In this document: positions 3,676 to 18,401 of the stretch, in pieces
Numbering within the stretch: position 1 is the stretch's first letter
How the letters are laid out: every line of letters starts with the position of its first letter
Assembly: GCF_011927665.1 (NCBI RefSeq)
Contig: NZ_JAATJA010000001.1
Coordinates: 1,283,019 to 1,347,018 of the forward strand
Length of the DNA: 64,000 bases
Direction: 5' to 3'
Source: Desulfobaculum xiamenense
GTDB taxonomy: Bacteria; Desulfobacterota; Desulfovibrionia; Desulfovibrionales; Desulfovibrionaceae
Notes under the pieces: model-generated
Seen by the model: only the letters and a program-made list of their open reading frames with translations
What the model was told of the DNA's origin: nothing
Database searches by the model: none
Made by a program: the position numbers and the translations under genes

Positions 3676-4026
3676 ATGCATAACGCAAACGCAACCGGCA
3701 TCGTCTTCGGCGTGGTCAAGGCACGCGCCCTGCTCCGGTCCCTCGTGATCGGACCGGGACCGAAGCTCCCCCCGCGCGAGGACGCCATGCTCTGGGAAGC
3801 CTATCAGGCCCTGAATCAGGCCGAGGGAGCCATCGAAAACGCCATCGGCCTGCGCGGCGAACTTGCCGACCACGAGGCCCTGCGACAGGTCGCCGACCGC
3901 ATTGAGACGGACGAGGCCATCCAGGACGCCCGCGAATCCGCAACCGCCCCCATGTCCGCAGCCCTGCGCCGCGAACAGGCCGGATGCGAGGAATCCCACC
4001 GCCGCCGCGACGAAGCCGCGGCGTGA
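3676..4026 (+). CDS. Hypothetical phage protein, helical
   Basis: This 116-aa protein starts at the ATG at 3676 behind AGGAGAG; the open frame extends further upstream without a better start. It is predicted largely helical and rich in Glu, Ala and Arg (DAMLWEAYQALNQAEGAIEN), and ends in an Arg/Glu/Ala-rich tail. I recognise no family. Its position in the early operon suggests an accessory phage function. Confidence 0.45.
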   Translation: MHNANATGIVFGVVKARALLRSLVIGPGPKLPPREDAMLWEAYQALNQAEGAIENAIGLRGELADHEALRQVADRIETDEAIQDARESATAPMSAALRREQAGCEESHRRRDEAAA

Positions 4027-4040
4027 CGGGGACGAAGATC

Positions 4041-4262
4041 ATGCGCAACCGCAACAGCAACGGCTCCATCCACACTCCCCTTCCGGGCGTGTTCCCCGAG
4101 ATACGGCGCGGGGAACGCGTCCGGGTAAGGACCAGCGCAGGCGACCACAGAAAGAGCTTCGCCATGTCCGGCGTCGAATATGATCGCCAGCTCGGCTGGG
4201 GCCTGCGCGTGGCAGGCGAAGGCTTCGTGAAGGTCCACGACCTGCTGGGGATTCTGCCGTGA
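4041..4262 (+). CDS. Hypothetical phage protein, small beta-rich
   Basis: This 73-aa protein starts at the ATG at 4041. A GTG at 4023 overlapping the previous stop is an alternative start. The sequence has several arginines and short beta-like segments (RGERVRVRTSAGDHRKSF, GWGLRVAGEGFVKV). It has no recognised domain. It lies 15 bases after the preceding gene and reads as part of the same transcript. Confidence 0.4.
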   Translation: MRNRNSNGSIHTPLPGVFPEIRRGERVRVRTSAGDHRKSFAMSGVEYDRQLGWGLRVAGEGFVKVHDLLGILP

Positions 4263-4386
4263 GCACCCCAAGGGAACGAAGACAAAACCGTGACGCTCAC
4301 AACAATCGAACATCGCACGTTCCGGAACACATCTCTGCTAAGACGCTGCCCCCCCCCACGCATCGCCTAACCCCACCCCTTCCCCT

Positions 4387-4409
4387 GCCCGGAACGTTCT
4401 GTTCCGGGC
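4387..4409. repeat. Perfect 9-bp inverted repeat (hairpin)
   Basis: GCCCGGAAC (4387–4395) and GTTCCGGGC (4401–4409) are perfect inverted copies around a 5-base loop. No T-run follows, so it is a weak terminator candidate. It lies 35 bases before the next start codon and could be an attenuator, an operator or an RNA-processing site. Confidence 0.5.
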
Positions 4410-4443
4410 GCGGATAAGGGATGGAGAGATAGGAGGAATCCGA

Positions 4444-4725
4444 ATGACCGTCCTCTATAGACCAGGCCTGTGCGAACTGTGCGAGAACAATGTCGAGAAC
4501 AGGGGAAAGGTTTGTGTGCTCGAAAGAAAGCACATCCGCGTCAACGCAAAGACGGGCGAGCCCTACATCTACCGAACGGACACTGTCTTTCACCCCATCA
4601 TCCGGCGCAACGCTGGCATTCCGGGCTGGCACAACATCGAAGGGCCGTATCCTGCGAAATGTGGAAACTTCCGCAAACGCAAGGACGCACTTGACCATGT
4701 TAGTACAGACAAACCGAACACATGA
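4444..4725 (+). CDS. Hypothetical phage protein with N-terminal CxxC
   Basis: This 93-aa protein has a good AGGAGG ribosome site upstream. It carries Cys-x2-Cys near residue 10 (LCELCENN) and further Cys and His residues (VFHPIIRRN, AKCGNFRKR), compatible with metal binding. The stop overlaps the methyltransferase start by 4 bases, so the two are probably translationally coupled. It could be an accessory factor of the methyltransferase, but there is no direct evidence for that. Confidence 0.5.
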   Translation: MTVLYRPGLCELCENNVENRGKVCVLERKHIRVNAKTGEPYIYRTDTVFHPIIRRNAGIPGWHNIEGPYPAKCGNFRKRKDALDHVSTDKPNT

Positions 4726-5507
4726 CCACCGCCCAGCCAACACCGGCACCGACCGTCGGGGAACTCTTCGCAGGGATCGGCGGAATGAGCCTCGGCCTCG
4801 CATGGGCGGGATTCAATGTTCGATGGCAGGTAGAAATAGATGAATGGTGCAGACGCATACTCGAAAGCCACTGGCCAGACGCCATACGCTTCGACGACAT
4901 CCGAACTCTCGACCCAGACAGTCTGGCTCCCGTTGATCTCATCTGCGGAGGCTACCCCTGCCAACCATTTTCCAACGCCGGAAAGCGAAAGGGCTCGCGC
5001 GATGACCGCCACCTCTGGCCGGAGGTTGTTCGCATCCTTCGCCATCTCCGAAGGATGGAACGACACCCCGCTTGGTGCCTGTTTGAAAACGTTGATGGCC
5101 ACGTCTCAATGGGCCTCGACAGCGTGCTTTCTGACCTGGAGGGAATCGGCTACACCTGCTGGCCGCTCATTGTTCCAGCTTGTGCCGTCGGGGCACGACA
5201 CCAAAGAAATCGAGTCTGGATTGTGGCCAACGCCAAACGCGACTTGTTTCAAGGGCGGCCGGCTCTCGCCTCGAAAGGATGTGGCCAATCCACTCAAGAA
5301 CAACTGGCAGGACTTCTGTTCCCTTGTCCTTGGCCATCGCTATCCGTCGCCAGAGCTTTCCGAGCTGGTGATGGGTTTTCCCGACAAGTGGACAGAAACA
5401 GGGCCATCGGAAATGCCGTCGTCCCACAGGTTGCATACATGATGGGCATGGCAATCCGGACCGCGCACGAGATCCACAATCTCCCCTACGCAGGAGACCC
5501 CACATGA
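4722..5507 (+). CDS. C5 cytosine-specific DNA methyltransferase
   Basis: This 261-aa enzyme contains the ordered C5-methyltransferase motifs: ELFAGIGG (I, residues 14–21), GGYPCQPFS (IV, catalytic Cys80), ENV (VI, 122–124), RHQRNRVWIVA (VIII, about 159–169) and RAIGNAVVPQ (X, near the C-terminus). Only about 45 residues separate motifs VIII and IX/X, so the target-recognition region is very short. No restriction endonuclease is nearby, so it is probably an orphan phage enzyme that protects or marks its own DNA. A second long frame overlaps it (see 4840–5442). Confidence 0.9.
   Translation: MTTAQPTPAPTVGELFAGIGGMSLGLAWAGFNVRWQVEIDEWCRRILESHWPDAIRFDDIRTLDPDSLAPVDLICGGYPCQPFSNAGKRKGSRDDRHLWPEVVRILRHLRRMERHPAWCLFENVDGHVSMGLDSVLSDLEGIGYTCWPLIVPACAVGARHQRNRVWIVANAKRDLFQGRPALASKGCGQSTQEQLAGLLFPCPWPSLSVARAFRAGDGFSRQVDRNRAIGNAVVPQVAYMMGMAIRTAHEIHNLPYAGDPT
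4840..5442 (+). other. Overlapping +1-frame ORF inside the methyltransferase gene
   Basis: This is a 200-codon open frame, shifted relative to the methyltransferase. Its translation contains motifs I recognise from annotated phage proteins, notably TACFLTWRESATPAGRSLFQ, SGLWPTPNA (5215–5241) and LVMGFPDKWT (5365–5394). The second and third are encoded by the same DNA as methyltransferase motifs VIII and X. Either this frame is a real overprinted gene, or such database proteins are out-of-frame readings of methyltransferase genes. I cannot decide from one sequence. Confidence 0.25.
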
Positions 5508-5584
5508 CCAAACCCACCGCCGAAGCCCTCCGCCTCACCCTGCTCCACCGCGGCCCGCTTCCGCGGGACTTCGGCATCTGGTGA
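5504..5584 (+). CDS. Very small phage ORF, 26 aa
   Basis: An ATG at 5504 overlaps the methyltransferase stop (ATGA) and encodes 26 residues beginning MTKPTAEALRLTLLHRG before a TGA. Overlap coupling and the otherwise tight packing of the operon make translation plausible. No function can be suggested. Confidence 0.3.
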   Translation: MTKPTAEALRLTLLHRGPLPRDFGIW

Positions 5585-5617
5585 ATCGCAATCGTAAACC
5601 TCAGAGTGAGGAGCGAC

Positions 5618-5878
5618 ATGCCCCGCCACAAAGGCTCTGCCACAATCCGACAGGAATACCTGTCCCGCCCGCAGGCAGCGAGATTCTGCGGAGTCAGCCC
5701 CCGAACGTTCCGGCGGTGGGAAGAGTCCTACGCAATCCCGGCGAAAGGACCCGAACGAAATCGGTTTCTTATCGCTGACCTCTCCGCATTCATGGACAAC
5801 CCTGAAGAATTCCTCGCAACGAGACGAGGAAGCGCCCGACGCCCTGCAACTGGCTTCACTCCGGTTGTCGTGCGTTGA
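5618..5878 (+). CDS. Excisionase-like helix-turn-helix protein
   Basis: This 86-aa protein begins at an ATG behind GAGGAG. Residues about 12–40 (QEYLSRPQAARFCGVSPRTFRRWEE) form a MerR/AlpA-like winged helix of the kind found in excisionases. The rest is a short charged tail. It lies directly upstream of the integrase and nearly touches it, as expected for a recombination directionality factor. The fold is well supported; the excisionase role is inferred from position. Confidence 0.65.
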   Translation: MPRHKGSATIRQEYLSRPQAARFCGVSPRTFRRWEESYAIPAKGPERNRFLIADLSAFMDNPEEFLATRRGSARRPATGFTPVVVR

Positions 5879-5888
5879 AAATTACGGC

Positions 5889-6968
5889 ATGACCGTGGAC
5901 ATGAAACCTGTAACGGCAAGAGCCACAACGGATGGACGATGGTTCGTGTCCTATCGTGTGCAGGGCAAGAAGAGCCCTGTTCGCGAATACTTCGGACGCG
6001 GAAAGACTGGGGAACAGACGGCGAAAATCCGTGCTGCAGAGCTTAACCTGTCCAAGACCAAGGGAGAAACCCTTGGGCGGACATCAACGGACATCTATCT
6101 GGATGAACTGGCACAAGTATACTTGGACGACGCTAAACGGCGCGGAGTCTCCGAGTATTGGCGCAAGGAATTCACCGCGCTCCTCAACACCACGATTCTC
6201 CCGGCACTCTCTTCGCGTCCCGTCGATCAGATTTCCTTCGCGGACATCGTGCGCATGGCCGACGGCTGGGGCAAATCCGTTGCCACAACCAACCGCTATC
6301 TGGGATACCTGCGCGCTGTGTTCCGCTTCGGGCTGGACCAGGACATCACCACCGTCAACCCTCTTCGGAAATGGCGAAAGGCCAAGGAGACAACCAAGCG
6401 CGACTTCCGGCTGACCATGGAAGACTTCGAACGGATCCGCGCGAAGGCAATGCCCCACCTCGCCATTGCCATGGAGATCGAACTAATGACATGGGCTCGC
6501 CCCGGTCCGACGGAACTCTTCAAGCTCCACAAGCGCGACATCGACCCGGAAGCCAAGACCATCCGCATTCGCGGAACCAAGACGCCAACATCGGATCGCC
6601 TCATGCATCTTGATGGCGACGAAGTCTGCAGGCTGCTGGAAATCACAAGCCTCTCGAAATCGGGATACCTGATCGAATACGCAGGCGCACCGGTCAAGCA
6701 GATTGCCAGATCGTGGGCGGCTGCCGTCGAAGCTGCGGGCATCACCTACCATGTCACACCCTATGACATCCGCCACCTCGGCATATCCGAAGCCCTCAGA
6801 GCCGGGGCTGATCTCGCCGCCGTCTCCCAGATGGCGGGGCACGCCGACATCTCCACCACCCAACGCAAATACTACCACTGCCTCAAGGGTGAGAAGGCCA
6901 GAGCGGCCACCCTCAAGGCCAAGGCAGCCCGCCCAAAGGCTGGCAAAGTCGTCAACTTCCCACGATGA
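5889..6968 (+). CDS. Tyrosine recombinase (phage integrase)
   Basis: This 359-aa protein has an N-terminal arm-binding region, a core-binding domain (about 65–165) and a C-terminal catalytic domain. Candidate catalytic residues are Arg204 (TWARPG), Lys231, Arg295 in PYDIRH, His318 in MAGHAD and the tyrosine at 328/329 in RKYYH. The position usually held by His in HxxR is Tyr292. I chose the ATG at 5889; a TTG opens the frame at 5865. The gene lies next to a tRNA-Pro 3' end with arm-type repeats between them, so the target site is almost certainly that tRNA gene. Confidence 0.9.
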   Translation: MTVDMKPVTARATTDGRWFVSYRVQGKKSPVREYFGRGKTGEQTAKIRAAELNLSKTKGETLGRTSTDIYLDELAQVYLDDAKRRGVSEYWRKEFTALLNTTILPALSSRPVDQISFADIVRMADGWGKSVATTNRYLGYLRAVFRFGLDQDITTVNPLRKWRKAKETTKRDFRLTMEDFERIRAKAMPHLAIAMEIELMTWARPGPTELFKLHKRDIDPEAKTIRIRGTKTPTSDRLMHLDGDEVCRLLEITSLSKSGYLIEYAGAPVKQIARSWAAAVEAAGITYHVTPYDIRHLGISEALRAGADLAAVSQMAGHADISTTQRKYYHCLKGEKARAATLKAKAARPKAGKVVNFPR

Positions 6969-6972
6969 TTTC

Positions 6973-7036
6973 TGGTACACACCTTGGTACACACGCACGC
7001 CGTTTTTGGTACACAATCGCCCATTTTTGTGTACCA
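6973..7036. repeat. TGGTACACA repeats between integrase and att core
   Basis: TGGTACACA occurs three times in direct orientation (6973–6981, 6985–6993, 7007–7015) and once inverted (TGTGTACCA, 7028–7036). All four copies lie in 64 bases between the integrase stop and the tRNA-derived core. Clustered short repeats here are typical of arm-type integrase or excisionase binding sites. Confidence 0.6.
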
Positions 7037-7096
7037 AATCAAAAAAATCTTCAATTATTCCAGCATATGCTCTGACGCATCCTTCTTTGGGAGCAG

Positions 7097-7203
7097 GATG
7101 CCGGGGGTTCAAATCCCTCCGCCCCGACCACTCGACCGAAAACGGGTCGCGAGTAATGCTCGCGACCCGTTTTTTCGTTTTATAAGGTCCGCTGACAATC
7201 GCC
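7097..7203 (+). repeat. tRNA-Pro 3'-end direct repeat, copy A (att site)
   Basis: These 107 bases are identical to 15223–15329. They contain the T-arm and acceptor end of a tRNA ending in CCGACCA (CCA at 7128–7130), followed by a terminator. The preceding TTTGGGA (about 7085–7091) looks like the anticodon loop of tRNA-Pro(UGG). No matching 5' half lies upstream, so this is an attachment-site fragment and not a functional tRNA. Confidence 0.8.
7142..7175 (+). terminator. Intrinsic terminator (tRNA-Pro derived), copy A
   Basis: A 12-bp stem (7142–7153 with 7159–7170) with a TAATG loop is followed by a run of T. The identical element recurs at 15268–15301, and the same stem with a different loop recurs at 18289–18321. 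Confidence 0.85.
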
Positions 7204-7350
7204 CCTGTACGCGCACGGATGAATCGGCATCTGGTTGCGGTTGGTTTGGCACTCGAATCAGGCCTGTCATCCCCCAAAGAAAACGCCCGCCCCTCCTGAA
7301 CACATGGTAACCTCCTCACCACGGACGACCAAATCCCAAGGAGGATCCCA

Positions 7351-7635
7351 ATGCCAGACTCCCCAAAAGCCTCCCCCGCCGCTCATCTGGAGAAAAACGA
7401 CCTTTTTTTTAAAACAAGCCCGTATCTTCCCCACTGGCCAACCTGTCCGAAGGATGGGGACCTCCTCTTGAACGCGAGAATGGACAGGGAGCGTAAATCG
7501 CATTTAAAAGTTCACTCCATGGCCACCAATTACAACCGCATTTACGATGCCATAGTCAAGCTTACATCAGATATTCCGTGTGCCCCTGCAGCGTGGATAT
7601 TGCGAACAACCCCAAAATTTCCCGTAACGCCCTGA
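7351..7635 (+). CDS. Doubtful small ORF, 94 aa
   Basis: An ATG at 7351 follows a good AAGGAGG site. The frame encodes 94 residues with a central HWPTCPKDGDLLLN segment. The last 69 bases overlap the antisense end of the kinase gene. The DNA around PTCPKDGD is repeated near 18356. I cannot assign a function. It may be a remnant of the sequence that originally followed the tRNA. Confidence 0.25.
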   Translation: MPDSPKASPAAHLEKNDLFFKTSPYLPHWPTCPKDGDLLLNARMDRERKSHLKVHSMATNYNRIYDAIVKLTSDIPCAPAAWILRTTPKFPVTP

Positions 7636-9723
7636 ACGTTGCCGCATCAAAGAGCCACAACACGGGCAGGTGGGGGTGCTAGATGTGGCAATTGTTTGAG
7701 GTGGTGTAGGTGCTGTGGTGTGGGATATTGGGGAAGGTGGCGGCGTGAAACGGATCGGTGGTGTCATCATCAGTGAGACAGTTGATGCTGGAATCGATGC
7801 ACCCAACGCGCGCAGGTCTTGTTCTGCTTGGGCGCGAACAGCAATCGCGTCGGTCAGCGCCCCGTCGCTTCTGGCCCTCGTGGGCAATGCGTCAAGCCGG
7901 GCTTTGGCGTTTCTCAGGGTCCCCAGCCCGTTGCGGATCGTGGATTCCAGCTTCGCCTTTTCTGCCGCAAATCGTCCACGCAACGCCCTTTCGTCGGCAA
8001 TGTCCTGAGCGTTCGGCGTCCGGTCATACCTAAACCGGGACTCATGTCCCCGCCGCCACGCCATCAGCTTGCCGGTCATCACGTCACCAAAACCCGGCAC
8101 TCGCAGCACGGCGGAATGGTTCACATCAGCGGCGGTCTCGATTCCGAAGGATATCAGTGTTGCCGTTTTCGCCGGGCCGATACCGGAGATATTCGCGCGC
8201 CGGACGGAGAAACGGTCAAGATAGGCCTGTCGCTGGCGCGACTCCCGGTTGGACTTCATCTCCATGAGTTCGCGGGCAAGCGCATCGTCATGGCCCTTGT
8301 AGACGCCGATTGCGGCGTCCAAATCGGCGCGCACCTTCATAACCTCAGTCATGCCGTTACGTTTGACAAAGGCATTCAACTCTCGCTGCACACTTTCATC
8401 GGCATTTTTGAAGGCCTGTTGAAACGGGCCGGGGTCAACTTCACGGTTGGAGAAGATGAGCCACCCCCAGATTGCTAGCCCGATCCACACAAACCACGCC
8501 GGGGCGACGGAGATGAAACCAGCGACTGCGCCGCCCATCATCAACAAGCCCATGAAAGCACTCCCGCGCTTCCCGCTCCTAGCTTGATTCAGTGCATTGC
8601 TGGCACCGCGCGGCGTAGCCGCAGCGGGAAGCAAGTCCGCGACCGTTGGGAAGCGAAATGCCAGAATCTCGCGGATTGCCTGTTCTGTGCCCCGCACATC
8701 GGTTGGGATATTCGATTCCACGGCGGTCAGGTCCGGGAACATGTCAAAACCGCTGTTGGCGATCAGCTTGCACCAGATACACCCACCGGCGGCGCTGGGG
8801 TAGTAGTGTGTCTTGACCTTGCTACACTGGTTCAGTGAGCCTTTCAGAGCCTTGAGGGCGTAAATCCAGTCCATCGCGCTCGGACGCGCGCCCGGTGTCA
8901 GGCCGAATGCGTTCTCGAATGCACGGGAGACAGCATCCGGGAACATATCGAGTGTCAGCGCGCCGGGTGGCGGCGTTGTCCGTGTTGCCGCTTGCCGGGT
9001 GAGCGAAAAGGCAAACCGGTTCTGGGCAATGGCTTCGCCCATGGAAATGTCCGGTCCCTTGTAGCACCCAGCGTAGGGGTGACGGCCCATGAAAAGAAGG
9101 TGGAAGATCGCAACCGCCAGCCCGAAGTTGTCGTGCTCTATAGTGCGCTCCACGTTTTCGAAGCGAATTCCGTGTAGTTCTGGCGGAGTGAATTCAGGAA
9201 CGCCAACAACACAGGGGTAGGTCTTGCCATTCCGCCGAAACTGAAAGCTGTCGGCATCAATGATGGCAACTGTGGCGTCCTGCGCCACAAGCACGCCAGA
9301 ATGGTTTAGATCGCCGATGACACATCCCGTCTGGTGCACCTCCCCAACGGCGCGCGCGACGTTCAATGCAGCGTGAACGAGAAACCGATAATCCGACTTC
9401 GGGAAATGGTGCTGGCGGGATTTGGGGCTATAGAGCTCATGTAGTTCACGGTGTGTTGGCACCAGCCGCATAGCGAACCCAAGGAATTCCCCCGTCGACG
9501 ATGTTGCTACCTCCACAGGATACGTTACCAGAGTCGTCGCTTGACCAAGCCCCTCGGCGACCATGGCCCGTATTTTACCCTCACGGCTACCTCTGTTGTT
9601 CGGCTTGTAGAGCTTGACCGCCAGATCGGACTTCCCACTCAGGCGAAAAACGTCACCTTCGTTTCCACCCCCCAGTTTCTCCCCAACAGTGCACCGTTCC
9701 TTTCCTATTACTACGCTCGGCAC
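7567..9723 (-). CDS. YegI-like protein kinase with HhH and zinc-finger C-terminus (TerY-P triad kinase)
   Basis: This 718-aa protein has an N-terminal kinase domain. A glycine-rich loop GGGNEGDVF (18–26), Lys37 in AVKLYK, a catalytic Asp138 in IGDLNHSG and a metal-binding Asp156 in IIDADSF are visible. Gly143 occupies the position of the usual catalytic-loop Asn, which I believe is common in this subfamily. Then come two hydrophobic segments (about 390–430), a helix-hairpin-helix pair (about 520–570, ISGIGPAKTATL and VPGFGDVMTG) and a four-Cys topoisomerase-type finger at the C-terminus. It follows the phosphatase gene by 2 bases. Domain order and operon match the vWA–PP2C–kinase TerY-P triad and E. 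coli YegI. Confidence 0.85.
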   Translation of the reverse strand: MPSVVIGKERCTVGEKLGGGNEGDVFRLSGKSDLAVKLYKPNNRGSREGKIRAMVAEGLGQATTLVTYPVEVATSSTGEFLGFAMRLVPTHRELHELYSPKSRQHHFPKSDYRFLVHAALNVARAVGEVHQTGCVIGDLNHSGVLVAQDATVAIIDADSFQFRRNGKTYPCVVGVPEFTPPELHGIRFENVERTIEHDNFGLAVAIFHLLFMGRHPYAGCYKGPDISMGEAIAQNRFAFSLTRQAATRTTPPPGALTLDMFPDAVSRAFENAFGLTPGARPSAMDWIYALKALKGSLNQCSKVKTHYYPSAAGGCIWCKLIANSGFDMFPDLTAVESNIPTDVRGTEQAIREILAFRFPTVADLLPAAATPRGASNALNQARSGKRGSAFMGLLMMGGAVAGFISVAPAWFVWIGLAIWGWLIFSNREVDPGPFQQAFKNADESVQRELNAFVKRNGMTEVMKVRADLDAAIGVYKGHDDALARELMEMKSNRESRQRQAYLDRFSVRRANISGIGPAKTATLISFGIETAADVNHSAVLRVPGFGDVMTGKLMAWRRGHESRFRYDRTPNAQDIADERALRGRFAAEKAKLESTIRNGLGTLRNAKARLDALPTRARSDGALTDAIAVRAQAEQDLRALGASIPASTVSLMMTPPIRFTPPPSPISHTTAPTPPQTIATSSTPTCPCCGSLMRQRSGRYGKFWGCSQYPRCRGTRNI

Positions 9724-9725
9724 GG

Positions 9726-10499
9726 TCAGCCCCCGGATATGAGGATGAGCGTCTTGTCGTCATCGGTGCGTTCGCAGACCGATGAACCGGCGAGATATGT
9801 GGCGAGCTTCGCCGATAGTTCGACAAGGCGGCCCTCACCCGATGCGACATCCACCGGTCGAAGCATGGGATCGAAGAACCGGGCGTGCGCGCTCTGTTCC
9901 AGATGCGACAACCCCAGATCTCCGACACCATCGGAAAACAGTGCAAATGCATCGTGTTTGCGTGGGTGGCGGGTGATGTTCAGACGCGGTTCGGGATCAT
10001 CGGTTACAAAGTAGGTGGTGGACGCATATTCGCCGTTCTCAGGCCAGCACAGCACCTCCCACTCGGTGTTTTTCCGGCCGACAACGGCGCTATCGCCGAT
10101 GTGGAGCGTTACAGCCTCATTCGGAGTGACAACGATTGCCGCCAGCGTCGCGGCGAATTGCCGGGGTGTAGATTCTCGCCGGGTAGCTATTGCCGATATT
10201 CGGTCCCGCAGTTCAGCAATCCAGTCCGCCAATATTTCATTGGGCGGCATGTCTGGATTGATGCGAACCCATTCCCGGAATCGAACCGAAAGGAAGCGGC
10301 AAGTAAGCCATGCGCCGTATGCACCAAATTTGGCGCTGCCTGCGCCATCCGAAACAACAGCGAAAATGCCGCCGTTTTCGAATGCGGCAACAGCGTAGGC
10401 ATCTTGCAGCCTACCATCATTCTGAATGTGCGACGTTCCGATTACGGACGCGGACGCCCACCGCCAAGCCACAATTTCACCCTGCAACAGCCCAGCCAT
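9726..10499 (-). CDS. PP2C-family serine/threonine phosphatase (TerY-P triad)
   Basis: This 257-aa protein carries PP2C motifs: an early Asp in [23 protein letters not shown], the core [18 protein letters not shown] and a final DDDKTLIL. These supply the acidic metal ligands. The start at 10499 lies 23 bases inside the end of the vWA gene, so expression is coupled. In this family the phosphatase is thought to reverse the action of the partner kinase on a shared target, possibly the vWA protein (inference from family literature). E. coli YegK is the closest named relative. Confidence 0.85.
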
Positions 10500-11154
10500 C
10501 CGGGGCGGCCGGGTTTTCGAGTGGGACGGCATCACCCGGGTTGGACTGAGAGACAGCGCTTAGGGAGCTGGACAGCCACTGGAATAGCTCCCTGAAGGCC
10601 AAGCCTTTCAGCTTGAGCGGCTGGCGTGTGGCGATCTGTCCAAGAACGTTCATATCCGCCTGTTCCACACCTACAGCATAGAACATGAATTCCTTGCTCT
10701 CTTCGCCTTGGTGCACCCGTCGCTTAGCCTCTTCCCAACTATCGGTCGGGGCGCCATCGGTAATAAGGAACACCCACGGGCGGTAATATTTAACACCATT
10801 CTCACGGTACCGATCTTTACGCTGACGGAGCATATTGAGCCCAGTCACAACCGCTTCGCCCATCGGCGTTGCATTGTCCGCCACCAGTGTTTCGGGATAA
10901 AAGTGATCCACTGTAGTAAAGTCGGATTTGATCTCGACTGGCCCAAAAGTGACCATAGCTAATTCCACGCGCTTTGCGGCCACTGCGTCGTTCATGAGTT
11001 CTTGGCGCAAAGTAGCTAATCCTTCATTTAATTCCGAAATTGGCTTACCGCTCATGGAATAGGATGTATCTAATAGGAGTATTACAGGGCATCTCTGCTC
11101 TGGGTTTTCCGCGAATTCCGCATCGCTGAATGGTTGTTGATCAAATTCACTCAT
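10477..11154 (-). CDS. von Willebrand factor A domain protein (TerY/YegL-like, TerY-P triad)
   Basis: This 225-aa protein is a single vWA domain. The metal-ion-dependent adhesion site is complete: DTSYSMSG (about residues 29–36), a Thr in NATPMGEA and an Asp in ITDGAPTD. It is the first gene of the three-gene minus-strand operon. vWA proteins of this type act as adaptors that bind partners through the metal site; in the TerY-P triad the partners are predicted to be the kinase and phosphatase targets. Named relatives are TerY and YegL. Confidence 0.85.
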
Positions 11155-11178
11155 GGAAATTACGCCCCCTTCACCCCG

Positions 11179-11207
11179 TTAATTTTTGTGTTGTGTTGCA
11201 GTGTCAA
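11179..11207 (-). promoter_or_regulatory. Possible promoter of the TerY-P operon
   Basis: On the minus strand a perfect TTGACA (11207–11202) is followed after 17 bases by AATTAA (11184–11179), a weak -10. It lies 25 bases upstream of the vWA start. Confidence 0.35.
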
Positions 11208-11379
11208 TTTCGCAGTAGTTTCAGACACTCCTGTTTTAGTCTGCCCTTTGCCGCTACCCTCGTCAATCGTAACCGTCCGGAGAAATGACCTCTCCTCACA
11301 TTTTCTGTTTTCTCCTGTTTGCCAGACACTTCATCAACACACTGATACCGTCATCTTTTCTTCGACGTACATTCGTTTG

Positions 11380-11572
11380 AGCAGTTGATTCTCGCGCTAA
11401 GCTCTTTCATGCGTGCCAGCGAGGCGTTCATGGCACCGTACTTGGATTGCCACTTGTAAAATGTGGTGCTGCTCATGGCGTGTTCTCGGCAAAGCTGGGC
11501 GACGGAATTTCCATTCTCGGCCTGCTTTAATATATTCAGGATCTATGCGTCGCTGTACCGTGATTTCTTCAT
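11380..11572 (-). pseudogene. IS3-family OrfA fragment with internal stop
   Basis: Reading leftward from 11572 the frame gives MKKSRYSDA, then a TAG, then ILNILKQAENGNSVAQLC and a typical SSTTFYKWQSKYG segment. This is the HTH part of an IS3-family OrfA transposase protein. The TAG replaces an expected Gln codon, and the coding sequence stops making sense beyond 11380. No orfB or terminal repeats are seen, so it is a scrap left by an old insertion. Confidence 0.75.
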
Positions 11573-11772
11573 GTAGAATCTCCTCCAATTGGGTTAGTGG
11601 AAATTTTACTTTTCAGAGCAACTATTTTGCTGGGGGATTACCTCACGCCCCCCCCCTCTCCGCCAGAGTGGATTGCTAATACAAAATGAGTATTGCCGTG
11701 ATCACCTCTCCGTGGCGACGGACGTGTCCGCCGACAGCCGCGGCACACCCGCCACAAGGTTCTGGGTGAGGT

Positions 11773-13105
11773 TCAGCGCGCGGTCTTGAGATTCCCGGCG
11801 AGGTACTTAAGGAACATGAGGGACTTCACGTCCTGCACCAGCTGGTCCACGCGGTCGGAGTTACGCAGCATGTCCTGCACGTAGCGTGCGGCGTATCCGT
11901 AGAGCCTCGGCTGGCTGGTGGCGTCAATCTCGTACAGCGCATCGATGAATCCCCGCGCCGCGTCCATCTTGGAAAGCCATCCGTACAGCCCGCTCTTGTG
12001 CTCCCAAAGGATGCGCTCAATGTCCTCGGTCTCGAAGCCCGGAACGTCCTTGCGCTTGATGGCGTGGCGCATCCACCCCCGCGTCTTGAGCACGTCTGAC
12101 ACGGACTGGTGAAGCAGCGTCCTCAAAGCGCCCTGCGCCTTGTCGTCCGCGCCGGTGCGCGCCACCGCCGCGTTGATGACCTGCTCCATGGCGTCCACGG
12201 GAATGGCGTGGTCGTACACGTCCTCGGGCAGGCCCTGCACCTTGCCATACTCCCACCGCGCGCTGGGATACTGCGGCTTCAGCTCGCGCATCATGCGGGC
12301 GGCCCGAAGGTCTCCGGCCACGCCACCGTAGAAGTGCCGCCGATACAGGGTCTCGCCGGTTTTCTGATCCAACGCGCGGACATAGTGCGTGCCCCGCCGG
12401 ACGTGGGGAAAATAGTTGTACACCCGGCCCATCGCGGACCGGTACTTCTCGATGGCACCGGGATTGTCGCGCATCTCGCGCATGCCCCGCAGGCGGTCGT
12501 AGACGGCGCGGACTCGACATGAAAGACGAAGTCCGGAGCCGTGGTCGCGCGGGAGAAGCGGGAGTCCGGGGCATGCGGCTTGACCACGCCCTTTTCGGTG
12601 AGTATCTTGTTTTTACTCCGAAGCTCGAAGGCCCTGGGCAATTGCAGCCCAGACATGCGTTGGGTTTCGGAGTACTTTGTTTTGTTCCAATAAAGCAGTC
12701 GCTTATTCGCAGCTTCCCGATTTATCCATTCTGCCGCTTTGCTCCTGCCATAGACACTTGCTATATCGTGGGCTTCAGTCTTGCCATCTCGAACGTTCAG
12801 ATGAACAGCTGCAATGATAGGCAGCCCTGCATGCTCCATTTCCGTGAGCACGACCAAACTGTCCGCCATCGTGGCTGATTTGAAAATCATCAGCGGATCC
12901 GCAAGCTGCCTGGGCAAGTCCCGCAAGGCATCAAGCGCAATGCCATGCTTGAGCTTCGTGATCTTCTTCAGCACGCCCTGACGCATGGTCATAGCGAGAT
13001 CACGCGCCCCCACGGCCCGCAGAACATCCGGGGTCCGGCACACGGTCAGCACGCGGCGAGGATGGATCCGGCCAGCCTCGAAGCGGATGGCGTCGACCAC
13101 GCTGG
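11773..13105 (-). pseudogene. Broken MuF/polyvalent phage protein remnant
   Basis: The part encoded at about 13105–12600 resembles the phage MuF C-terminal domain (ALRDLPRQLADPLMIFKS, LVVLTEMEHAGLPIIAAV, GLQLP). The part encoded at 12515–11773 (for example RVYNYFPHVRRGTHYVRA) resembles a later segment of the very large polyvalent (PLxRFG-type) phage proteins. The two lie in different frames, with the break near 12505–12515. The 5' end is cut off where the RHS fragment begins, near 13105. No intact protein can be made. Such proteins are delivered with phage DNA; here only a fossil remains. Confidence 0.6.
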
Positions 13106-14226
13106 ATATATTCAAACGGGAAATCATCGGCGGCTCAACGACTGACTATCGATATGCGTACGACGAGGACGGAAGACTTTCCCGGGTGTTCGCCAACGGC
13201 GCGCTCACCGAAGCATACGAATACGACGCCGACGGTATCAGAATATCCGATCTGAACGCATACAGACGCGGCAAGAGCAAGACCTACCGATATGACGGGC
13301 ATGGACAGCTCAAACAGGCAGGGGAAACGTATTTCGAACACGACGATGCTGGACGTCTGAGTTCTCGCTCTTTCCGCGGCTCTTCAACGGAATACCTGTA
13401 CAACGACCGCGATTTCATCACGGACATCCTCATTCGAAACAATGGCGATCTTTCCCAAAGGATTCATTACACATACGACGCCAAGAATCGCCGCACCAGC
13501 ATCTCGCTAAACGGTACGCTCACGACAACACTTGAATGGGACGGCTTGCGACTCAAACGCATGTTCGACGGTTCATGGTGGTCATTCGAATATGAAAACG
13601 ACTGCATCCTCCCAACTCGCAGTGAAAGGAATTGCGAAAAATTCGCCTTGTCCTACGACCACGTCGGAAGTCTGCGATGCGCAACTGATGAACGTGGACA
13701 TATCGTATTTGAAACTTTATACGACAGCTTTGGGAACACGATACAGATTTCAAACCCGGACTTCGGCATTCCTTTCGCTTTTGCGGGGGGATTGCATGAC
13801 TACGAGACAGGGCTCATCCACTTCCTCTATCGCGATTACGCTCCAGATGTCGCCCGGTGGACGACCAAGGATCCTCTTGGATATGCGGCAGGCGACAAAG
13901 ACCTCTACGGTTACTGCCTTGATGACCCGATCAACCTCAAGGATTTCACAGGAACAAAGGCTACGGCTGGTGATATATTCTTCGGAGCTGGAAGCGGATT
14001 TTACAAGGGTGCGCAAACTGGCGCAACGTTCTCAACTGGAGCCGGACTCGGACCTATACCCGGAGCGATAGCTGGGGGTTTTTTGGGATCTGCGCTTGGC
14101 ATGCTCAGTACGATATTCGTATGTAAGGCAGTTGATGGCATCAATTCAACCATAGCGGTGTCACATAAGGACGACCTCGAAAATACCAAAAACAAAAAAT
14201 ACAGCCCCCGAATTGGCGGGAGATAA
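13106..14226 (+). pseudogene. 5'-truncated RHS/YD-repeat protein with C-terminal tip
   Basis: The frame shows YD repeats (YRYAYDEDGRLSRVFANG, YEYDADGIRISD, YRYDGHGQLKQAG, YTYDAKNRRTS) and the RHS core end (GLIHFLYRDYAPDVARWTTKDPLG). DLYGYCLDDPINLKD marks the usual cleavage and variable-tip boundary. The tip, about 80 residues, has a glycine-zipper-like hydrophobic stretch (GAGLGPIPGAIAGGFLGSAL). Thousands of residues normally upstream are absent, and no secretion signal is present. It is opposed head-to-head to the MuF fragment. I treat it as a displaced C-terminal cassette. Confidence 0.7.
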
Positions 14227-14250
14227 TCAAGGGACAAAGGTCCACGCCGC

Positions 14251-14427
14251 ATGAATCACAAAGCAATCGCAAACGGATTAGCCAAAAAGCTTCTCTCCAC
14301 CTATCTGATATTTATGGCTTTCAGATATCTCGGCTTTTTTGAACTAGGATCCATCTGTCCAAGCATCGTGTGCGATCTTAGCTTTCTCTGGACCCTGATT
14401 TACATCCGAATTTATAGCGAGGATTAA
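14251..14427 (+). CDS. Small membrane protein downstream of RHS tip; possible immunity protein
   Basis: This 58-aa ORF begins 25 bases after the RHS stop. It encodes a hydrophobic protein (MNHKAIANGLAKKLLSTYL then mostly Ile, Phe and Leu) with two likely membrane segments. RHS toxin tips are normally followed by a small cognate immunity gene. A membrane immunity protein would suit a tip with a glycine-zipper membrane segment. That pairing is inference from position only. Confidence 0.4.
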   Translation: MNHKAIANGLAKKLLSTYLIFMAFRYLGFFELGSICPSIVCDLSFLWTLIYIRIYSED

Positions 14428-14452
14428 GAGAAACAGAAAAAGAGCGAGCCCC

Positions 14453-14701
14453 TCACAACTCCCCCCGCTCCACCTTCAGGCGCACCCAGGCCTGAACGCG
14501 GGATGGCCATGCCATGACGACGGGGCGGCGGGCGCGGCCTACGCGGAGCTTGAAGAGGCAACCGGTCTCGAAGAGTTCCTGCGCGTGCTTGGTGCGAAGG
14601 GTGGTGAGGGAGAAGTAGGGGTGGGGGCCGTTGCGATGTTCGTAGTGAAACAGGCGTAGCCAGATTTCTTTCCACGTGGCGATGGCGCGTTCCTCGTTCA
14701 T
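14453..14701 (-). CDS. Hypothetical phage protein downstream of endolysin
   Basis: This 82-aa protein starts at 14701 with a start/stop overlap (ATGA) with the end of the truncated endolysin. The sequence begins MNEERAIATWKEIWLRLF and is rich in aromatic and basic residues. It has no membrane segment and no recognised domain. Its coupling to the endolysin suggests a lysis-module or packaging-adjacent phage gene that survived when the upstream gene was truncated. Confidence 0.45.
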   Translation of the reverse strand: MNEERAIATWKEIWLRLFHYEHRNGPHPYFSLTTLRTKHAQELFETGCLFKLRVGRARRPVVMAWPSRVQAWVRLKVERGEL

Positions 14702-15159
14702 CGCACGCCCTCCCGCACGGCGATGGTTCGGTTGAGCCAGCCGAGGAGAAAGGTTCGTGCCCAGTCGCGGGCGGCAAGGCGGGTGTAGTGGCTCACGCGG
14801 CGCATGAGTAGGGAATCGAGGATGCCCAGCCCATGACCATCCCTGTTCGCCCTGCCGAGCACCGACAGCGTGTTGGGACCGATGTCGCCGTCCACGCGCA
14901 GGACCGCCCGCAGAGAAGAGCGCCGCTCGTTCAGCGCCACCTGAAGCCACACAGCGGTGCGCCTGCGCCCCACGTTCACCGCGGTATCGAACAGCACCGG
15001 TGCCAACTGCCACGACTGCGCCACCACATCGTCCAGACGAAGGCGGTACCAGAAGTAGCGCCGGTAGATGTCCGCCGCCTGCGCAGCGTCCATCGCTGCC
15101 ACGTTCTGCCACGTCACGGTGCCGTCGCGATTCAGAACAGCATCCCGCAGGGCCGGTAC
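14698..15159 (-). pseudogene. N-terminally truncated GH108-type endolysin
   Basis: The readable part (VTWQNVAAMDAAQAADIYRR then FDTAVNVGRRRTAVWLQVAL and VDGDIGPNTLSVLG) matches the C-terminal half of the GH108/secretion-activator muramidase family with its peptidoglycan-binding segment. The N-terminal part with the catalytic Glu is missing. The coding sequence ends exactly where the repeated att-arm sequence begins (about 15151–15160). A recombination event at the att site removed the 5' end, so the enzyme should be inactive. Confidence 0.7.
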
Positions 15160-15225
15160 GTGGACAGGCGGTTAACCAATGTTTTAAGGTGGTCAAACCA
15201 ACGCATCATACTTTTGGAGCACGAT
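15151..15225 (+). repeat. Left arm of att copy B, homologous to copy C
   Basis: These 75 bases match 18172–18245 with scattered differences (both contain AACCAATGTTT and GGTGGTCAAACCAACGCATC). They have no counterpart beside copy A. They adjoin the 107-bp repeat B, so copy B joins a C-like left arm to an A-like right arm. Confidence 0.75.
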
Positions 15226-15329
15226 GCCGGGGGTTCAAATCCCTCCGCCCCGACCACTCGACCGAAAACGGGTCGCGAGTAATGCTCGCGACCCGTTTTT
15301 TCGTTTTATAAGGTCCGCTGACAATCGCC
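15223..15329 (+). repeat. tRNA-Pro 3'-end direct repeat, copy B (att site)
   Basis: These 107 bases are identical to copy A (7097–7203), with the encoded CCA at 15254–15256. The anticodon-loop-like segment upstream reads CTTTTGGAG, one base different from a usable Pro(UGG) loop, and no 5' half is present. It marks the junction between the A–B and B–C blocks. Confidence 0.8.
15268..15301 (+). terminator. Intrinsic terminator, copy B
   Basis: This is identical to the terminator in copy A: a 12-bp stem, TAATG loop and T-run. Confidence 0.85.
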
Positions 15330-15908
15330 TCTCCTCCCCCCCTGCCGTGCCGCCTCAAATTCAGCTGATAGGTCCATCGGTCAGGCGCTTCCTCACCTGT
15401 ACCGATCAGGACAAAAGCCAGCCACGCATTGCGCTCCGCGCATACACTCCAAGTTATATAACGAACCACACCCGCAACAGGTTATTCCAACGCAGTACAT
15501 CCCGTTTGGGATATCGTCCATTCGCGATTTTGCCCATCAGGCAATACAAAAAACCGCTTTTGGCGCATGCTCTAAAAAAACTCGTCAAATTAATGTTTAT
15601 CACGTACAGCTTAAAGCAACATTGCATCGTTATTTACATAAAAATCTATTTACTCAGCTGCAAGAAGACTATCCCCAGTTCAAAATACTTTGTCATGCAG
15701 CGATGTCAAGCCGCAGCAGTTCGACGGAGTGATCGGCAAACAGCCTAAACGTAGCCGCAGGGGAAACGAGGTCAAGCCGCAACTTCAAGATCGGTGCTCC
15801 AGTCTCGAAACTCGTACATCACCTCATCAATGGTTATCGCAGTACGAGGAAGACAAGTATACGGCGATAAACATTTTGGCACCAAACCCAAACAAGTGAG
15901 GTAGTAAA
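15330..15908. other. AT-rich gap upstream of the tailspike
   Basis: This 580-base stretch changes from GC-rich to AT-rich after about 15450. None of the short open frames has a ribosome site or protein-like composition. It probably contains the tailspike promoter and decayed phage sequence. Confidence 0.4.
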
Positions 15909-18035
15909 GTGCTCCCTTCAAACAAAAGCAGTGTGAAACTCCCCGGAAATGGAATCGCGACGGAATTCGATTTCGATTTCATCGTCTGGGATGTTTCGCA
16001 ACTAGCGGTGTTCATTGAGGATATAGTAGGAAACGTGACACAAATCACCTCGAACTGGTCCGCAGTACTAAACGCAGACCAGGAGACGAACCCCGGGGGG
16101 ACGATCACATATCCACTTACCGGGACGCCACTTGCAAACGGGTATTTCATCACCACGCTTCGCGATATGCCCTTTACGCAGGACGTGGACCTGTCCACGT
16201 TCGACCCCACCGTGATCGAAACCGCGCTGGACATCGCGACGGCGGAACGCCAACAGCTTCAGGAGGCTGTTGGCCGCGCCGTACTCGCTAAGCCCGGGCA
16301 GACCCCAGGAAACTACCTTGAGCAGTGCGAAGCAGCACAGCTCGCAGCGGAAAACGCACAGACCGGATCCGAATCCGCTCGCGATGCGTCTGTGGTCGCA
16401 CAGGGCGCAGCTGAAGCGGCACAGACCGCCGCAGAGGCCGCCGTGGCTAACGCAGGCCTCCCGTCCATCTCCGCAGCAGACGCGGGCCGCAGTCTCGTGG
16501 TCAAACCCGACGGCTCTGGGTATACGTTGTTCGACATGCTGCCCTGCTTCAACGTCACGAACTACGGGGCTGTCGGCGACGGCGTGACAGATGATACAGC
16601 GGCGGTGCAAGCAGCCCTCAACGCAGCTCACGCCGCTGGGGGCGGAACGGTCTATGTTCCGAATGGAACATTCGGACTGACCGGGCAACTCGAAATCTAC
16701 GACAACACCACGCTTCTCGGGTCCGGTTGGGGGTCGGTGCTTAAGGCCATCGCCGTGTACGATTACGTGATCCACCCGGCTCTAAACGGGATGCTTCACA
16801 ACGGAGGGCTTCTGTCCGCGCTCAACTATGACATACACGTCGAGAATATATGTTTCGACGGCGGATCAAACGGGAATGTTCAAAATGGAATTTGGTACGA
16901 TGAGGTCCGTCGGGCGTCTGTACGTGGGGTACAAATCCGCAATATCGGGGCCACCGGGGGAAATGCATGTATCGTTGCCGCGATGTCCGATGCAATAATC
17001 AGCGGCTGCTTGATTACCTCCAGCTTCGGACTTGTGAGCGGCATGTGGATCACCAACTCAAAAGGGCACGACGTTGTAGTCAGCGGGAATATCGTCCACG
17101 GATGCCATTGTGGTATTTTCACCGATGACGGCGTGTATCGTCTTTCGATCACCGGAAACATTGTCACGTCATGCCGCGCCAGCGGAATTTCAATGATTGA
17201 CGCCAATGATATTGTTATTTCTGGGAATATGATACGCGAATCAGCAGGGCACGGGATTGAATTCTCATGCGGAACACCGACCCGTTTCGGCGGAGTAATC
17301 TCCGGAAACAATGTACATGGCGTGGGAAGTCACGGTATCCGTTGTTACAAAACTACCGACATTACGGTATCTGGCAACATCCTCACCAGTGTGGCAGCTA
17401 CACATTCTTGCATTGAGCTGCACACGACACAACATGCCGCAGTATCAGGGAACCAGTGTAGATCAGGTGTATATGGCATTCAGCTCGTTGACGCCGCATA
17501 TACGAAACTCGGTGACGATAACGCGTGTTTCGAAAATACCTCTGGGTCAATTAACTTTATCGGGAGCACCACCAGAGCCACGCGACCGCAGGCATTTCAG
17601 CTTTGGATCAAGAACGATGGTGGAACTATCAAGCACGCGCTCGGGGCGGCCGGATCTCCAGCGATCAATGCGGAAGGATTCGTTGAGCGCATCAATGGTG
17701 CCATTAATACACTACAAGTAACACCAATTGGAGCGGATTCTACGACTCCGTTTGCATACGGCGGGAAAATTGCAAATGATCACGCGAAATTTATTTTTGA
17801 CATAAAGGCTTCAACACTTCCACAGTCAATGTGCGTGACGTGTATTCCGTTGTACAATACGACCGGTGTAGCAATCACAGTAAACACCATTATTGCAGCC
17901 GAAAACGTCAATGGTGTGCAAAAAAATCGCTTGAAACTGGGCTTTGCTAATGCTGCGTCCGGGGCAGGGGTGTCTCTGTCTACGATCCCCATAGGATCGG
18001 AAATCAGAGTACTCATTACGGGGGATTTCGAATGA
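15909..18035 (+). CDS. Phage tailspike / tail fibre with pectate-lyase-type beta-helix
   Basis: This 708-aa protein starts from a GTG at 15909. Residues about 1–115 form an N-terminal adaptor of the podophage tail-fibre type (FDFDFIVWDVSQLAVFIED). An Ala/Glu-rich helical linker follows (about 130–190). A pectate-lyase superfamily entry motif, NYGAVGDGVTDDTAAVQAAL, starts at about 219. A run of beta-helix coils (repeats of the type ISGNIV..C...GI) extends to about 550, followed by a C-terminal domain. This is the architecture of a polysaccharide-degrading or -binding receptor spike. The gene looks intact although the rest of the phage is gone. Confidence 0.8.
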   Translation: MLPSNKSSVKLPGNGIATEFDFDFIVWDVSQLAVFIEDIVGNVTQITSNWSAVLNADQETNPGGTITYPLTGTPLANGYFITTLRDMPFTQDVDLSTFDPTVIETALDIATAERQQLQEAVGRAVLAKPGQTPGNYLEQCEAAQLAAENAQTGSESARDASVVAQGAAEAAQTAAEAAVANAGLPSISAADAGRSLVVKPDGSGYTLFDMLPCFNVTNYGAVGDGVTDDTAAVQAALNAAHAAGGGTVYVPNGTFGLTGQLEIYDNTTLLGSGWGSVLKAIAVYDYVIHPALNGMLHNGGLLSALNYDIHVENICFDGGSNGNVQNGIWYDEVRRASVRGVQIRNIGATGGNACIVAAMSDAIISGCLITSSFGLVSGMWITNSKGHDVVVSGNIVHGCHCGIFTDDGVYRLSITGNIVTSCRASGISMIDANDIVISGNMIRESAGHGIEFSCGTPTRFGGVISGNNVHGVGSHGIRCYKTTDITVSGNILTSVAATHSCIELHTTQHAAVSGNQCRSGVYGIQLVDAAYTKLGDDNACFENTSGSINFIGSTTRATRPQAFQLWIKNDGGTIKHALGAAGSPAINAEGFVERINGAINTLQVTPIGADSTTPFAYGGKIANDHAKFIFDIKASTLPQSMCVTCIPLYNTTGVAITVNTIIAAENVNGVQKNRLKLGFANAASGAGVSLSTIPIGSEIRVLITGDFE

Positions 18036-18127
18036 TGAAGATAGAACTCATCCACGTCGAGAAAAATCCGGAGCACGGCACGTTCGGCGGACTTCGGATC
18101 AATGACAGCCCATCTGCGCACCCTTGA
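18032..18127 (+). pseudogene. Truncated DUF5675-like phage protein
   Basis: An ATG overlapping the tailspike stop opens 31 codons reading MMKIELIHVEKNPEHGTFGG, the typical start of the DUF5675 family often found next to phage tail genes. After a probable 1-base slip near 18110 the next frame reads TLEPPDRDYAPT, the expected continuation, until the att C arm. The gene is therefore broken by a frameshift and then by the att junction. Confidence 0.55.
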
Positions 18128-18171
18128 GCCGCCGGACCGCGACTACGCGCCCACATGCCCAGTATCCCCTA

Positions 18172-18321
18172 GGCCCGGTACGTGAACCGGCGGATAACCA
18201 ATGTTTCAAGGTGGTCAAACCAACGCATCATACTTTGGGAGCACGATTCCGGGGGGCGAATCCCTTCGTCCCGACCACAAGAAATCGAACGGGTCGCGAG
18301 CTTTGCTCGCGACCCGTTTTT
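18172..18321 (+). repeat. tRNA-Pro-like att copy C with terminator
   Basis: The left arm (18172–18245) matches the left arm of copy B. The T-arm/acceptor part (about 18240–18277, CCA at 18275–18277) resembles A and B but is altered: the T-loop lacks the TTC. The terminator stem (18289–18300 with 18306–18317) is conserved with a different loop. This is probably the oldest or a heterologous attachment site. Confidence 0.7.
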
Positions 18322-18401
18322 CCGTTTGCGCCATGTGATTATCGATAAGCCACAAACCTGTCCGAAGGATGGAGACCACCTCTCGTTAACATGTCACAGC
18401 C

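Follow-up and report, generated by a model that had tools for sequence, protein, structure and literature searches.

The window analysed here is a 64,000-nucleotide stretch of Desulfobaculum xiamenense DNA (assembly GCF_011927665.1, contig NZ_JAATJA010000001.1, positions 1,283,019 to 1,347,018, forward strand), and coordinates below are positions in it unless another sequence is named. At 7567-11154, its minus strand carries three intact open reading frames (ORFs), encoding a vWA protein, a PP2C phosphatase and a protein kinase. This triad is mobile and resembles both the TerY-P anti-phage genes and the YegIKL genes of Escherichia coli, and it is most likely prophage anti-phage cargo with an unusual, exchangeable tip on its kinase. 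The genes, and the segment of DNA which they share with their nearest relative, are as follows:

10477..11154, minus strand: vWA protein (TerY/YegL type), 225 residues, metal-ion-dependent adhesion site (MIDAS) complete (DTSYS...T...D); Pfam PF00092 2.1e-9, phrog_28389 1.5e-83
9726..10535, minus strand: PP2C phosphatase; Pfam PF13672 (PP2C_2) 5.4e-46, phrog_37072 1.4e-23
7567..9723, minus strand: kinase, 718 residues; Pfam PF00069 and PF01396, phrog_37888 7.8e-83
7469..11219, minus strand: cassette shared with the nearest relative, 93.6% DNA identity

An earlier note, made from the letters of this DNA alone, had described a MIDAS-complete vWA protein with a phosphatase and a kinase at this position, and both the Pfam matches and the active-site residues agree with it. 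The MIDAS residues of the vWA protein (D29, S31, S33, T96 and D133), acidic residues of the phosphatase such as D63, D148, D202 and D259, and K37, D138, N140 and D156 of the kinase are invariant in alignments of four, so Asp138, which the note had picked out in the kinase, was correctly placed. Its partners in the catalytic loop are partly non-standard, as they are in YegI. NCBIfam gives the phosphatase weak general matches only (e.g., Stp1 8.7e-8). Each of the three proteins has a PHROGs family, meaning that related triad proteins are already present in a viral protein library.

The 59-nucleotide overlap between the vWA and PP2C genes arises solely from choosing a further upstream GTG. The relatives start their PP2C at the GTG at 10472, 4 nucleotides beyond the vWA stop, and judging by them this is likely the start here too (giving about 248 residues) rather than 10535. 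Since that start lies past the vWA stop, and only 2 nucleotides separate PP2C from the kinase, the triad genes would touch but not overlap, which keeps one half of the earlier wording "overlapping or touching" and drops the other.

Ratios of nonsynonymous to synonymous substitution (dN/dS) against the nearest relative are 0.10/0.37/0.28 (vWA/PP2C/kinase), and against five other relatives, where computable, they are 0.01-0.20, with the vWA dS near saturation. By this measure, the genes are under purifying selection. One could suppose that the triad is a functionless passenger, decaying with the prophage debris around it, and the neighbouring ORFs scanned in the same unit (A-B, described below) are indeed fragments. 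All three triad ORFs, however, are intact and have the low ratios just given, and we consider this explanation highly improbable.

The three proteins are 58%, 34% and 33% identical to YegL, PphC and YegI of E. coli K-12, and the gene order is identical, which bears out the suggestion that the triad is related to YegL/YegK/YegI; K-12 differs in having yegJ between pphC and yegI. The window kinase and YegI have in common the kinase core, a CxWC motif, a hydrophobic stretch and a helix-hairpin-helix (HhH). The HhH region is strongly conserved between them, with one ten-residue stretch identical, but YegI is without the C-terminal C4 zinc ribbon of the window kinase.

The predicted layout of the kinase is a kinase domain at residues 1-300, CxWC at 315-318, a membrane hairpin at about 388-425 (a helical hairpin at about 376-425 in the model) and then helices, followed in the C-terminal half by the HhH at about 512-560, a helical stretch, a low-confidence linker at 654-681 and a topoisomerase I (TopoI)-type C4 zinc ribbon at 685-718. 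The Pkinase match (PF00069, 1.5e-7) scores 31.5 bits, marginally below the curated cut-off of 31.7. Zn_ribbon_Top1 (PF01396) matches residues 685-718 at 2.4e-11, and this is the topoisomerase-type finger that the earlier note had named. An AlphaFold model built from 45 sequences (mean pLDDT 86.4, pTM 0.65) contains the helical hairpin, the HhH and the low-confidence linker ahead of the ribbon. Judged by hydropathy, one or more membrane-like stretches occur at the hairpin position in 70 of 76 related kinases, and the membrane association proposed earlier accordingly agrees with both model and hydropathy. The HhH, also proposed earlier, is supported by the YegI alignment and the model but not by Pfam, which gives no HhH match on the window kinase; HHH_5 is weakly matched in two of nine related kinases scanned (L084 0.0015, L099 0.0043).

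Foldseek searches with the whole kinase found kinases such as PknB as the best PDB matches, and the named matches listed (best 50 per library) were to kinase domains only. With the C-terminal half, nothing matched at E<=0.001; the top rows were long-helix matches to very large chains, which we judged to be chance. The zinc ribbon can be superposed on the structure of E. coli TopoI bound to single-stranded DNA (4rul) at 41% identity over 34 columns, with a probability of 0.99 but an E-value of 0.84, so support for the ribbon comes mainly from the Pfam match. The HhH superposes on Rad51-type N-terminal domains at E of about 0.5 or worse. Because these structural matches are weak, we infer DNA as the ligand of the kinase tip from family membership, and do not present it as a result.

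Relatives were collected through the vWA protein: the best 80 of 472 confirmed relatives in species genomes were kept and three viral ones added, giving 83 loci. Across all the loci used in this analysis, some contigs were reached more than once (L014/L020; L015/L030; L100, L149 and L231; L101 and L232). All three triad genes were detected in 81/83 loci and were in order in 79/83. The GDxN motif is present in every kinase over 600 residues (76/76), and 78 of the 83 vWA proteins have the MIDAS pattern. A quick tree has 77 rows, L030 being left out by choice and L036, L045, L055, L071, L073, L074 and L087 because their kinase is missing or short. This tree places the host copy, together with a Desulfovibrionaceae relative (97/93/89% identical), inside a mainly alphaproteobacterial clade, which also holds copies from Chlorobi, Desulfobulbia and Verrucomicrobia (sets of 12 and 21 rows are starred 98 and 95). 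Across phyla in this clade, vWA identity is 90-92%.

Closer to home, the kinase was searched for in 59 genomes, those of the host and 58 relatives, and at E<=1e-10 was found in the host and two others. In 395 genomes drawn from the phylum, a search at E<=1e-30 gave, besides the host, two matches that cover the kinase domain only. When window positions 4001-19000 were compared with 85 loci at the DNA level, 81 matched and none of the matches reached beyond 7469-11219. The nearest relative has the cassette between glycogen-metabolism genes (by eye), and ARAGORN found no tRNA in its 12.7-kb locus. Within the ribbon branch, to which the window triad belongs, flanks of at least 500 bp are shared by only 12/1485 pairs of loci, and 7 of those 12 pairs fall within one genus. 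We sought a conserved fourth operon gene and found none: same-strand neighbours are mostly unrelated to each other outside single genera. On these sequence comparisons the ribbon branch is patchy and mobile, and it is because of the tree, the exact cassette edges and this patchiness that we regard the triad as mobile cargo.

Some of the vehicles can be seen directly. Two sphingomonad conjugative plasmids (L145 and L146) carry triads, preceded in like order by genes for a DNA repair exonuclease, a large hypothetical protein, a hypothetical protein and an ATP-binding protein; the one such ATP-binding protein that was scanned is HerA-like. At L063, the triad follows HsdR-like and AAA_5 genes plus one unscanned gene. 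Ribbon-type triads also occur on viral contigs, namely L229 (80/69/72% identical) and L230 (78/64/64%); in L230, an ORF that looks integrase-like by eye lies just upstream of the triad.

The far end of the kinase varies. The C4 motif is present in 49/77 kinases of the tree, with at least six changes on the tree. Even among kinases 72-80% identical to the window's, one ends in a WYL domain (L029, 2.5e-6), two are without the ribbon (L027 and L034) and one diverges after the HhH (L028). Further away, the L099 kinase has a peptidoglycan-binding domain (4.6e-5), and on a viral contig with a divergent triad (L102:9403-11409) the kinase is fused to an FGE-sulfatase/C-type-lectin-like domain (1.1e-27). 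Domains of this last kind are often varied by diversity-generating retroelements. A constant chassis with a changing end fits the idea that the tip is a recognition part. Kinases in print vary likewise, with that of the TerY-P set of Gao et al. reported to end in an OB-fold and those of CoCoNuT systems in a zinc ribbon (passages of PMC11090510).

Two side observations by eye or by frame concern the same region. The Chlorobi kinases L027 (11390 onward) and L034 (5789 onward) end ahead of the ribbon, and a short reading frame, similar in both by eye, comes next. In L023, another of the kinases 72-80% identical to the window's, the linker contains a frame break (L023:3797) and an intact ribbon is encoded in a different frame; this is either an error or a real break.

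The YegIKL branch looks different. In E. coli, YegIKL belongs to the core genome, with 5342/5426 genomes covering 80% or more of its length, and in Saccharibacillus the flanks are shared among species. The patchy ribbon branch seldom shares flanks between its loci. It seems, then, that one branch (YegIKL) is resident and the other (ribbon) mobile. Conserved housekeeping neighbourhoods, which the earlier note took as a sign against defence cargo, were thus found in the first branch but not in the second. The residency of YegIKL, together with the published description of YegI as a membrane-bound Ser/Thr kinase that is dephosphorylated by PphC (passages of PMC13232886), would suit a module for general stress or envelope signalling (a role that YegIKL may have) which is only incidentally mobile and has no specific anti-phage role. 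We regard this as unlikely for the window triad, though it deserves more weight than any other alternative considered here, as the ribbon branch is patchy, crosses phyla, occurs in phage loci and has differing tips.

Two related phage loci show where such a triad can sit. L025, a Rhodobacteraceae contig from a metagenome-assembled genome (MAG), has a triad 91/84/74% identical to the window's between a terminase GpA gene and a lambda-family portal gene, on the same strand, and the viral contig L100 has a triad 58/34/35% identical to the window's in the same arrangement. The two loci are related (terminase 68.5%, portal 66-69% identical), but their triads come from different branches. We describe the interval as a slot, and surveyed it using relatives of the L100 terminase: the best 80 of 180 were kept and L025 added, giving 81 loci (L149-L228 and L025), of which 73 have both terminase and portal and 8 lacked one. 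The interval measures 2.2-7.2 kb in 72/73 loci and 114 bp in the other.

The slot holds 45 insert types across the 73 loci, and DNA-methyltransferase motifs are found inside it in 46/73 loci and outside it in 6/73. Counted by ORFs of at least 200 residues, 50/137 inside the slot have such a motif versus 7/289 outside (p=7e-21, for loci that are related and not independent); counted by insert type, 25/45 do. Five slot proteins were checked against solved structures and matched HsdM (2.7e-147), a type III Mod (8.4e-46), HsdR (7.9e-26), a single-chain restriction-methyltransferase (7lo5 1.5e-34, LlaBIII 1.8e-26) and a superfamily 1 helicase (4e-12). By its gene content, the terminase-portal slot likely behaves as a prophage defence hotspot. 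Such hotspots have been reported elsewhere, with none at terminase-portal in the passages of PMC9122126, and we found no description of this one in the literature searched (parts of PMC9122126 and PMC12429752). Its many insert types of unassigned kind may include further defence systems. Because relatives of the window triad occupy a phage slot often filled with restriction-modification genes, the triad is probably defence cargo by position. The earlier note's defence-cargo proposal gains from this, with no TerY-P match in the defence library to add to it (see below).

The same phage copies, lying between terminase and portal on the same strand, could instead point to prophage control, i.e., a kinase/phosphatase balance which sets the carrier's lysogeny or virion production and has defence as a side effect. 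KKP, a prophage kinase-kinase-phosphatase module, does both, and it resembles the triad in being a prophage-borne kinase activity opposed by a phosphatase and published to defend against lytic phages (passages of PMC11341870). KKP, however, has two kinases and its text, in those passages, mentions no vWA, whereas the triad has one kinase and a vWA protein; the two are likened by description only. Copies of the triad also occur on conjugative plasmids (L145/L146) and between metabolic genes (L020, by eye), and other loci fill the phage slot with unrelated restriction systems. We think prophage control quite unlikely as the triad's role.

Among the closest known systems, TerY-P (Gao et al. 2020) is alike in make-up, as it consists of a TerY-like vWA, a PP2C and a Ser/Thr kinase with no further partner needed. 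It differs in that its kinase is reported with a C-terminal OB-fold and the window kinase has HhH and C4 ribbon, a comparison made by description only and from part of the text. TerY-P is reported to be active against T7-like phages (passages of PMC7699616). The Pseudomonas aeruginosa PAO1 system protects at low and high multiplicity of infection, most of the cells survive, and Autographiviridae are named as the phages it acts on (passages of PMC10889362); survival of most cells at high multiplicity argues against a purely suicidal mechanism. Helicobacter is also reported to carry a TerY-P island (passages of PMC4978471). The TerY-P part of type II/III-A CoCoNuT systems is similar too, having a vWA, a PP2C and a kinase with a zinc ribbon at its end (passages of PMC11090510), but no McrB/McrC-like, CnuH/CnuE or helicase gene was present among the ten window proteins scanned (4.7-20.3 kb).

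The same literature holds a metal-sensing hypothesis for TerY-P (Anantharaman et al. 2012, as cited in passages of PMC11090510), under which the vWA protein would sense a divalent metal or tellurite and the kinase would relay the signal. The complete MIDAS is compatible with this. However, the ten scanned window proteins gave no Pfam ter-family match and the hypothesis leaves the nucleic-acid-type tip unexplained, so we give it very little credence.

Our preferred reading, which we think fairly probable, is that the triad works on its own as a TerY-P/YegIKL-type phosphorylation switch against phages, which travels as prophage or plasmid cargo and was left here in prophage debris. The kinase would be held in the inner membrane by its helical hairpin, with the kinase domain and the HhH plus TopoI-type ribbon both cytoplasmic. 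PP2C would keep the kinase's targets dephosphorylated in the uninfected cell, and the Mg-binding vWA protein would serve as a scaffold for the two enzymes. The C-terminal tip would bind single strands or ends of phage DNA that enters or replicates close to the membrane, upon which kinase output would outrun the capacity of the phosphatase, and phosphorylated host or phage proteins would block an early step of infection. If the tip is exchangeable, then different lineages would watch for different triggers.

A bolder version of this switch seems to us possible but doubtful. Here the membrane kinase, phosphatase and vWA protein would form a chassis with a plug-in tip (C4 ribbon, WYL, peptidoglycan-binding, FGE/C-type-lectin-like or none, and OB-fold in print), the tip of the ribbon branch would recognise phage DNA (as single strands or ends) at the inner membrane, and this branch would spread partly via the terminase-portal prophage hotspot.

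Several results weigh against the anti-phage reading. PADLOC gave no TerY-P match for the window triad even at E<=10 (the presence of TerY-P models in the PADLOC copy is unverified), and the earlier note's identification as a TerY-P triad has its support in the vWA/PP2C/kinase make-up. Only the kinase was matched, weakly, by PD-T4-6 (3.7e-5) and MkoA (2.5e-4); both are defence kinases, and these matches may reflect general kinase likeness. An OB-fold like that reported for the Gao kinase (passages of PMC11090510) has no Pfam match in the window kinase and is absent from the models. The nearest characterised relative, YegIKL, is a core E. coli gene set that is weakly expressed, and passages of PMC13232886 name no anti-phage role for it. 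Annotated phage records yielded distant relatives only (2 and 3 records), triads make up just 2/45 insert types of the slot (L025 and L100 only, among 81 loci), and L025 itself is a 7.6-kb MAG contig. Finally, no sigma-70-like promoter was found on the triad strand in 7400-11700.

The neighbourhoods of related triads are a further point on that side. We compared 137 flanking genes from 38 loci with 135 control genes from 34 stretches of 24 related genomes (the control set is without one 1800-residue ORF, L112), and found no clear general enrichment of defence genes beside triads. PADLOC families at E<=1e-20 numbered 42 among the flanking genes versus 30 among the controls, and by eye both sets probably include false positives. 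Pfam matches to integrases, among the 25 commonest families listed, were 3/137 versus at most 1/135, which is not significant. Regular expressions for integrases were of limited use, as the strict version missed the window's own integrase and the other was loose; the loose scan matched 5/55 ribbon-branch loci, with only L033, L052 and L060 integrase-like by eye, and 0/34 controls. Proximity to a tRNA is no general trait either, being seen in 12/55 ribbon-branch loci and 6/34 control stretches (p=0.79; the count excludes L030, a ribbon-type locus with a tRNA gene). Of the two settings suggested earlier, a defence island is not clearly typical of triads and a tRNA site is not a general one.

The triad nevertheless offers a way in to a question that the parts of the literature searched do not describe, which is how TerY-P recognises infection. 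It is compact, intact and mobile, has a nucleic-acid-type tip and has close relatives with other tips on nearly the same chassis, so that exchanging tips could put infection recognition to the test. The triad further connects the puzzling YegIKL genes of E. coli with phage-borne cargo.

The surroundings of the triad in its host are those of a prophage site, with these features:

7104..7180, plus strand: attachment-site (att)-like copy A, the 3' part of tRNA-Pro plus a downstream hairpin
15230..15306, plus strand: att-like copy B, 100% identical to A over 77 nucleotides
18251..18327, plus strand: att-like copy C, 79% identical to A
5865..6968, plus strand: tyrosine integrase of the neighbouring prophage, just outside copy A; Pfam PF00589 5.4e-15, phrog_1 4.4e-48

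The host genome (3.64 Mb, 8 contigs) has its intact tRNA-Pro(UGG) at G000:C1:1254070-1254146, about 29 kb left of the window. ARAGORN found no tRNA at copies A, B and C, which repeat the 3' part of tRNA-Pro(UGG) alone. A tailed prophage of about 36 kb spans the distance from the tRNA to copy A, with the integrase at its copy A end; its ten scanned proteins include terminase, portal, head morphogenesis, scaffold, major head and tail proteins. The triad sits in the adjoining 8.1-kb A-B unit, alongside phage and RHS fragments (a MuF_C fragment and an RHS fragment). Direct repeats of the tRNA 3' end flank this unit, as in tRNA-integrated islands, and in this the locus agrees with the tRNA-Pro island of the earlier note. 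Nothing among the A-B ORFs scanned conflicts with the claim that no other intact operon lies between these two copies. There is no integrase inside A-B among those ORFs (the ORF at 14453-15196 was outside the scan).

At the left edge of the cassette, a sequence of about 30 nucleotides (7437-7468) ends exactly where the cassette begins. It recurs at 18355-18383 and at G000:C1:1704702-1704733 with 93-97% identity, and may mark a recombination site or the end of an element. We considered and set aside a transposon as the source of the cassette, having identified no inverted ends and no second copy of the right flank. An empty-site comparison with one same-genus genome gave matches limited to left-flank pieces and the tRNA. 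Immediately upstream of the vWA gene, at 11397-11588, lies what looks by eye like an IS3-like orfA remnant with an early stop. Beyond copy B, a third unit (copies B-C, 15306-18327) carries a phage tail-spike gene at 15909-18035.

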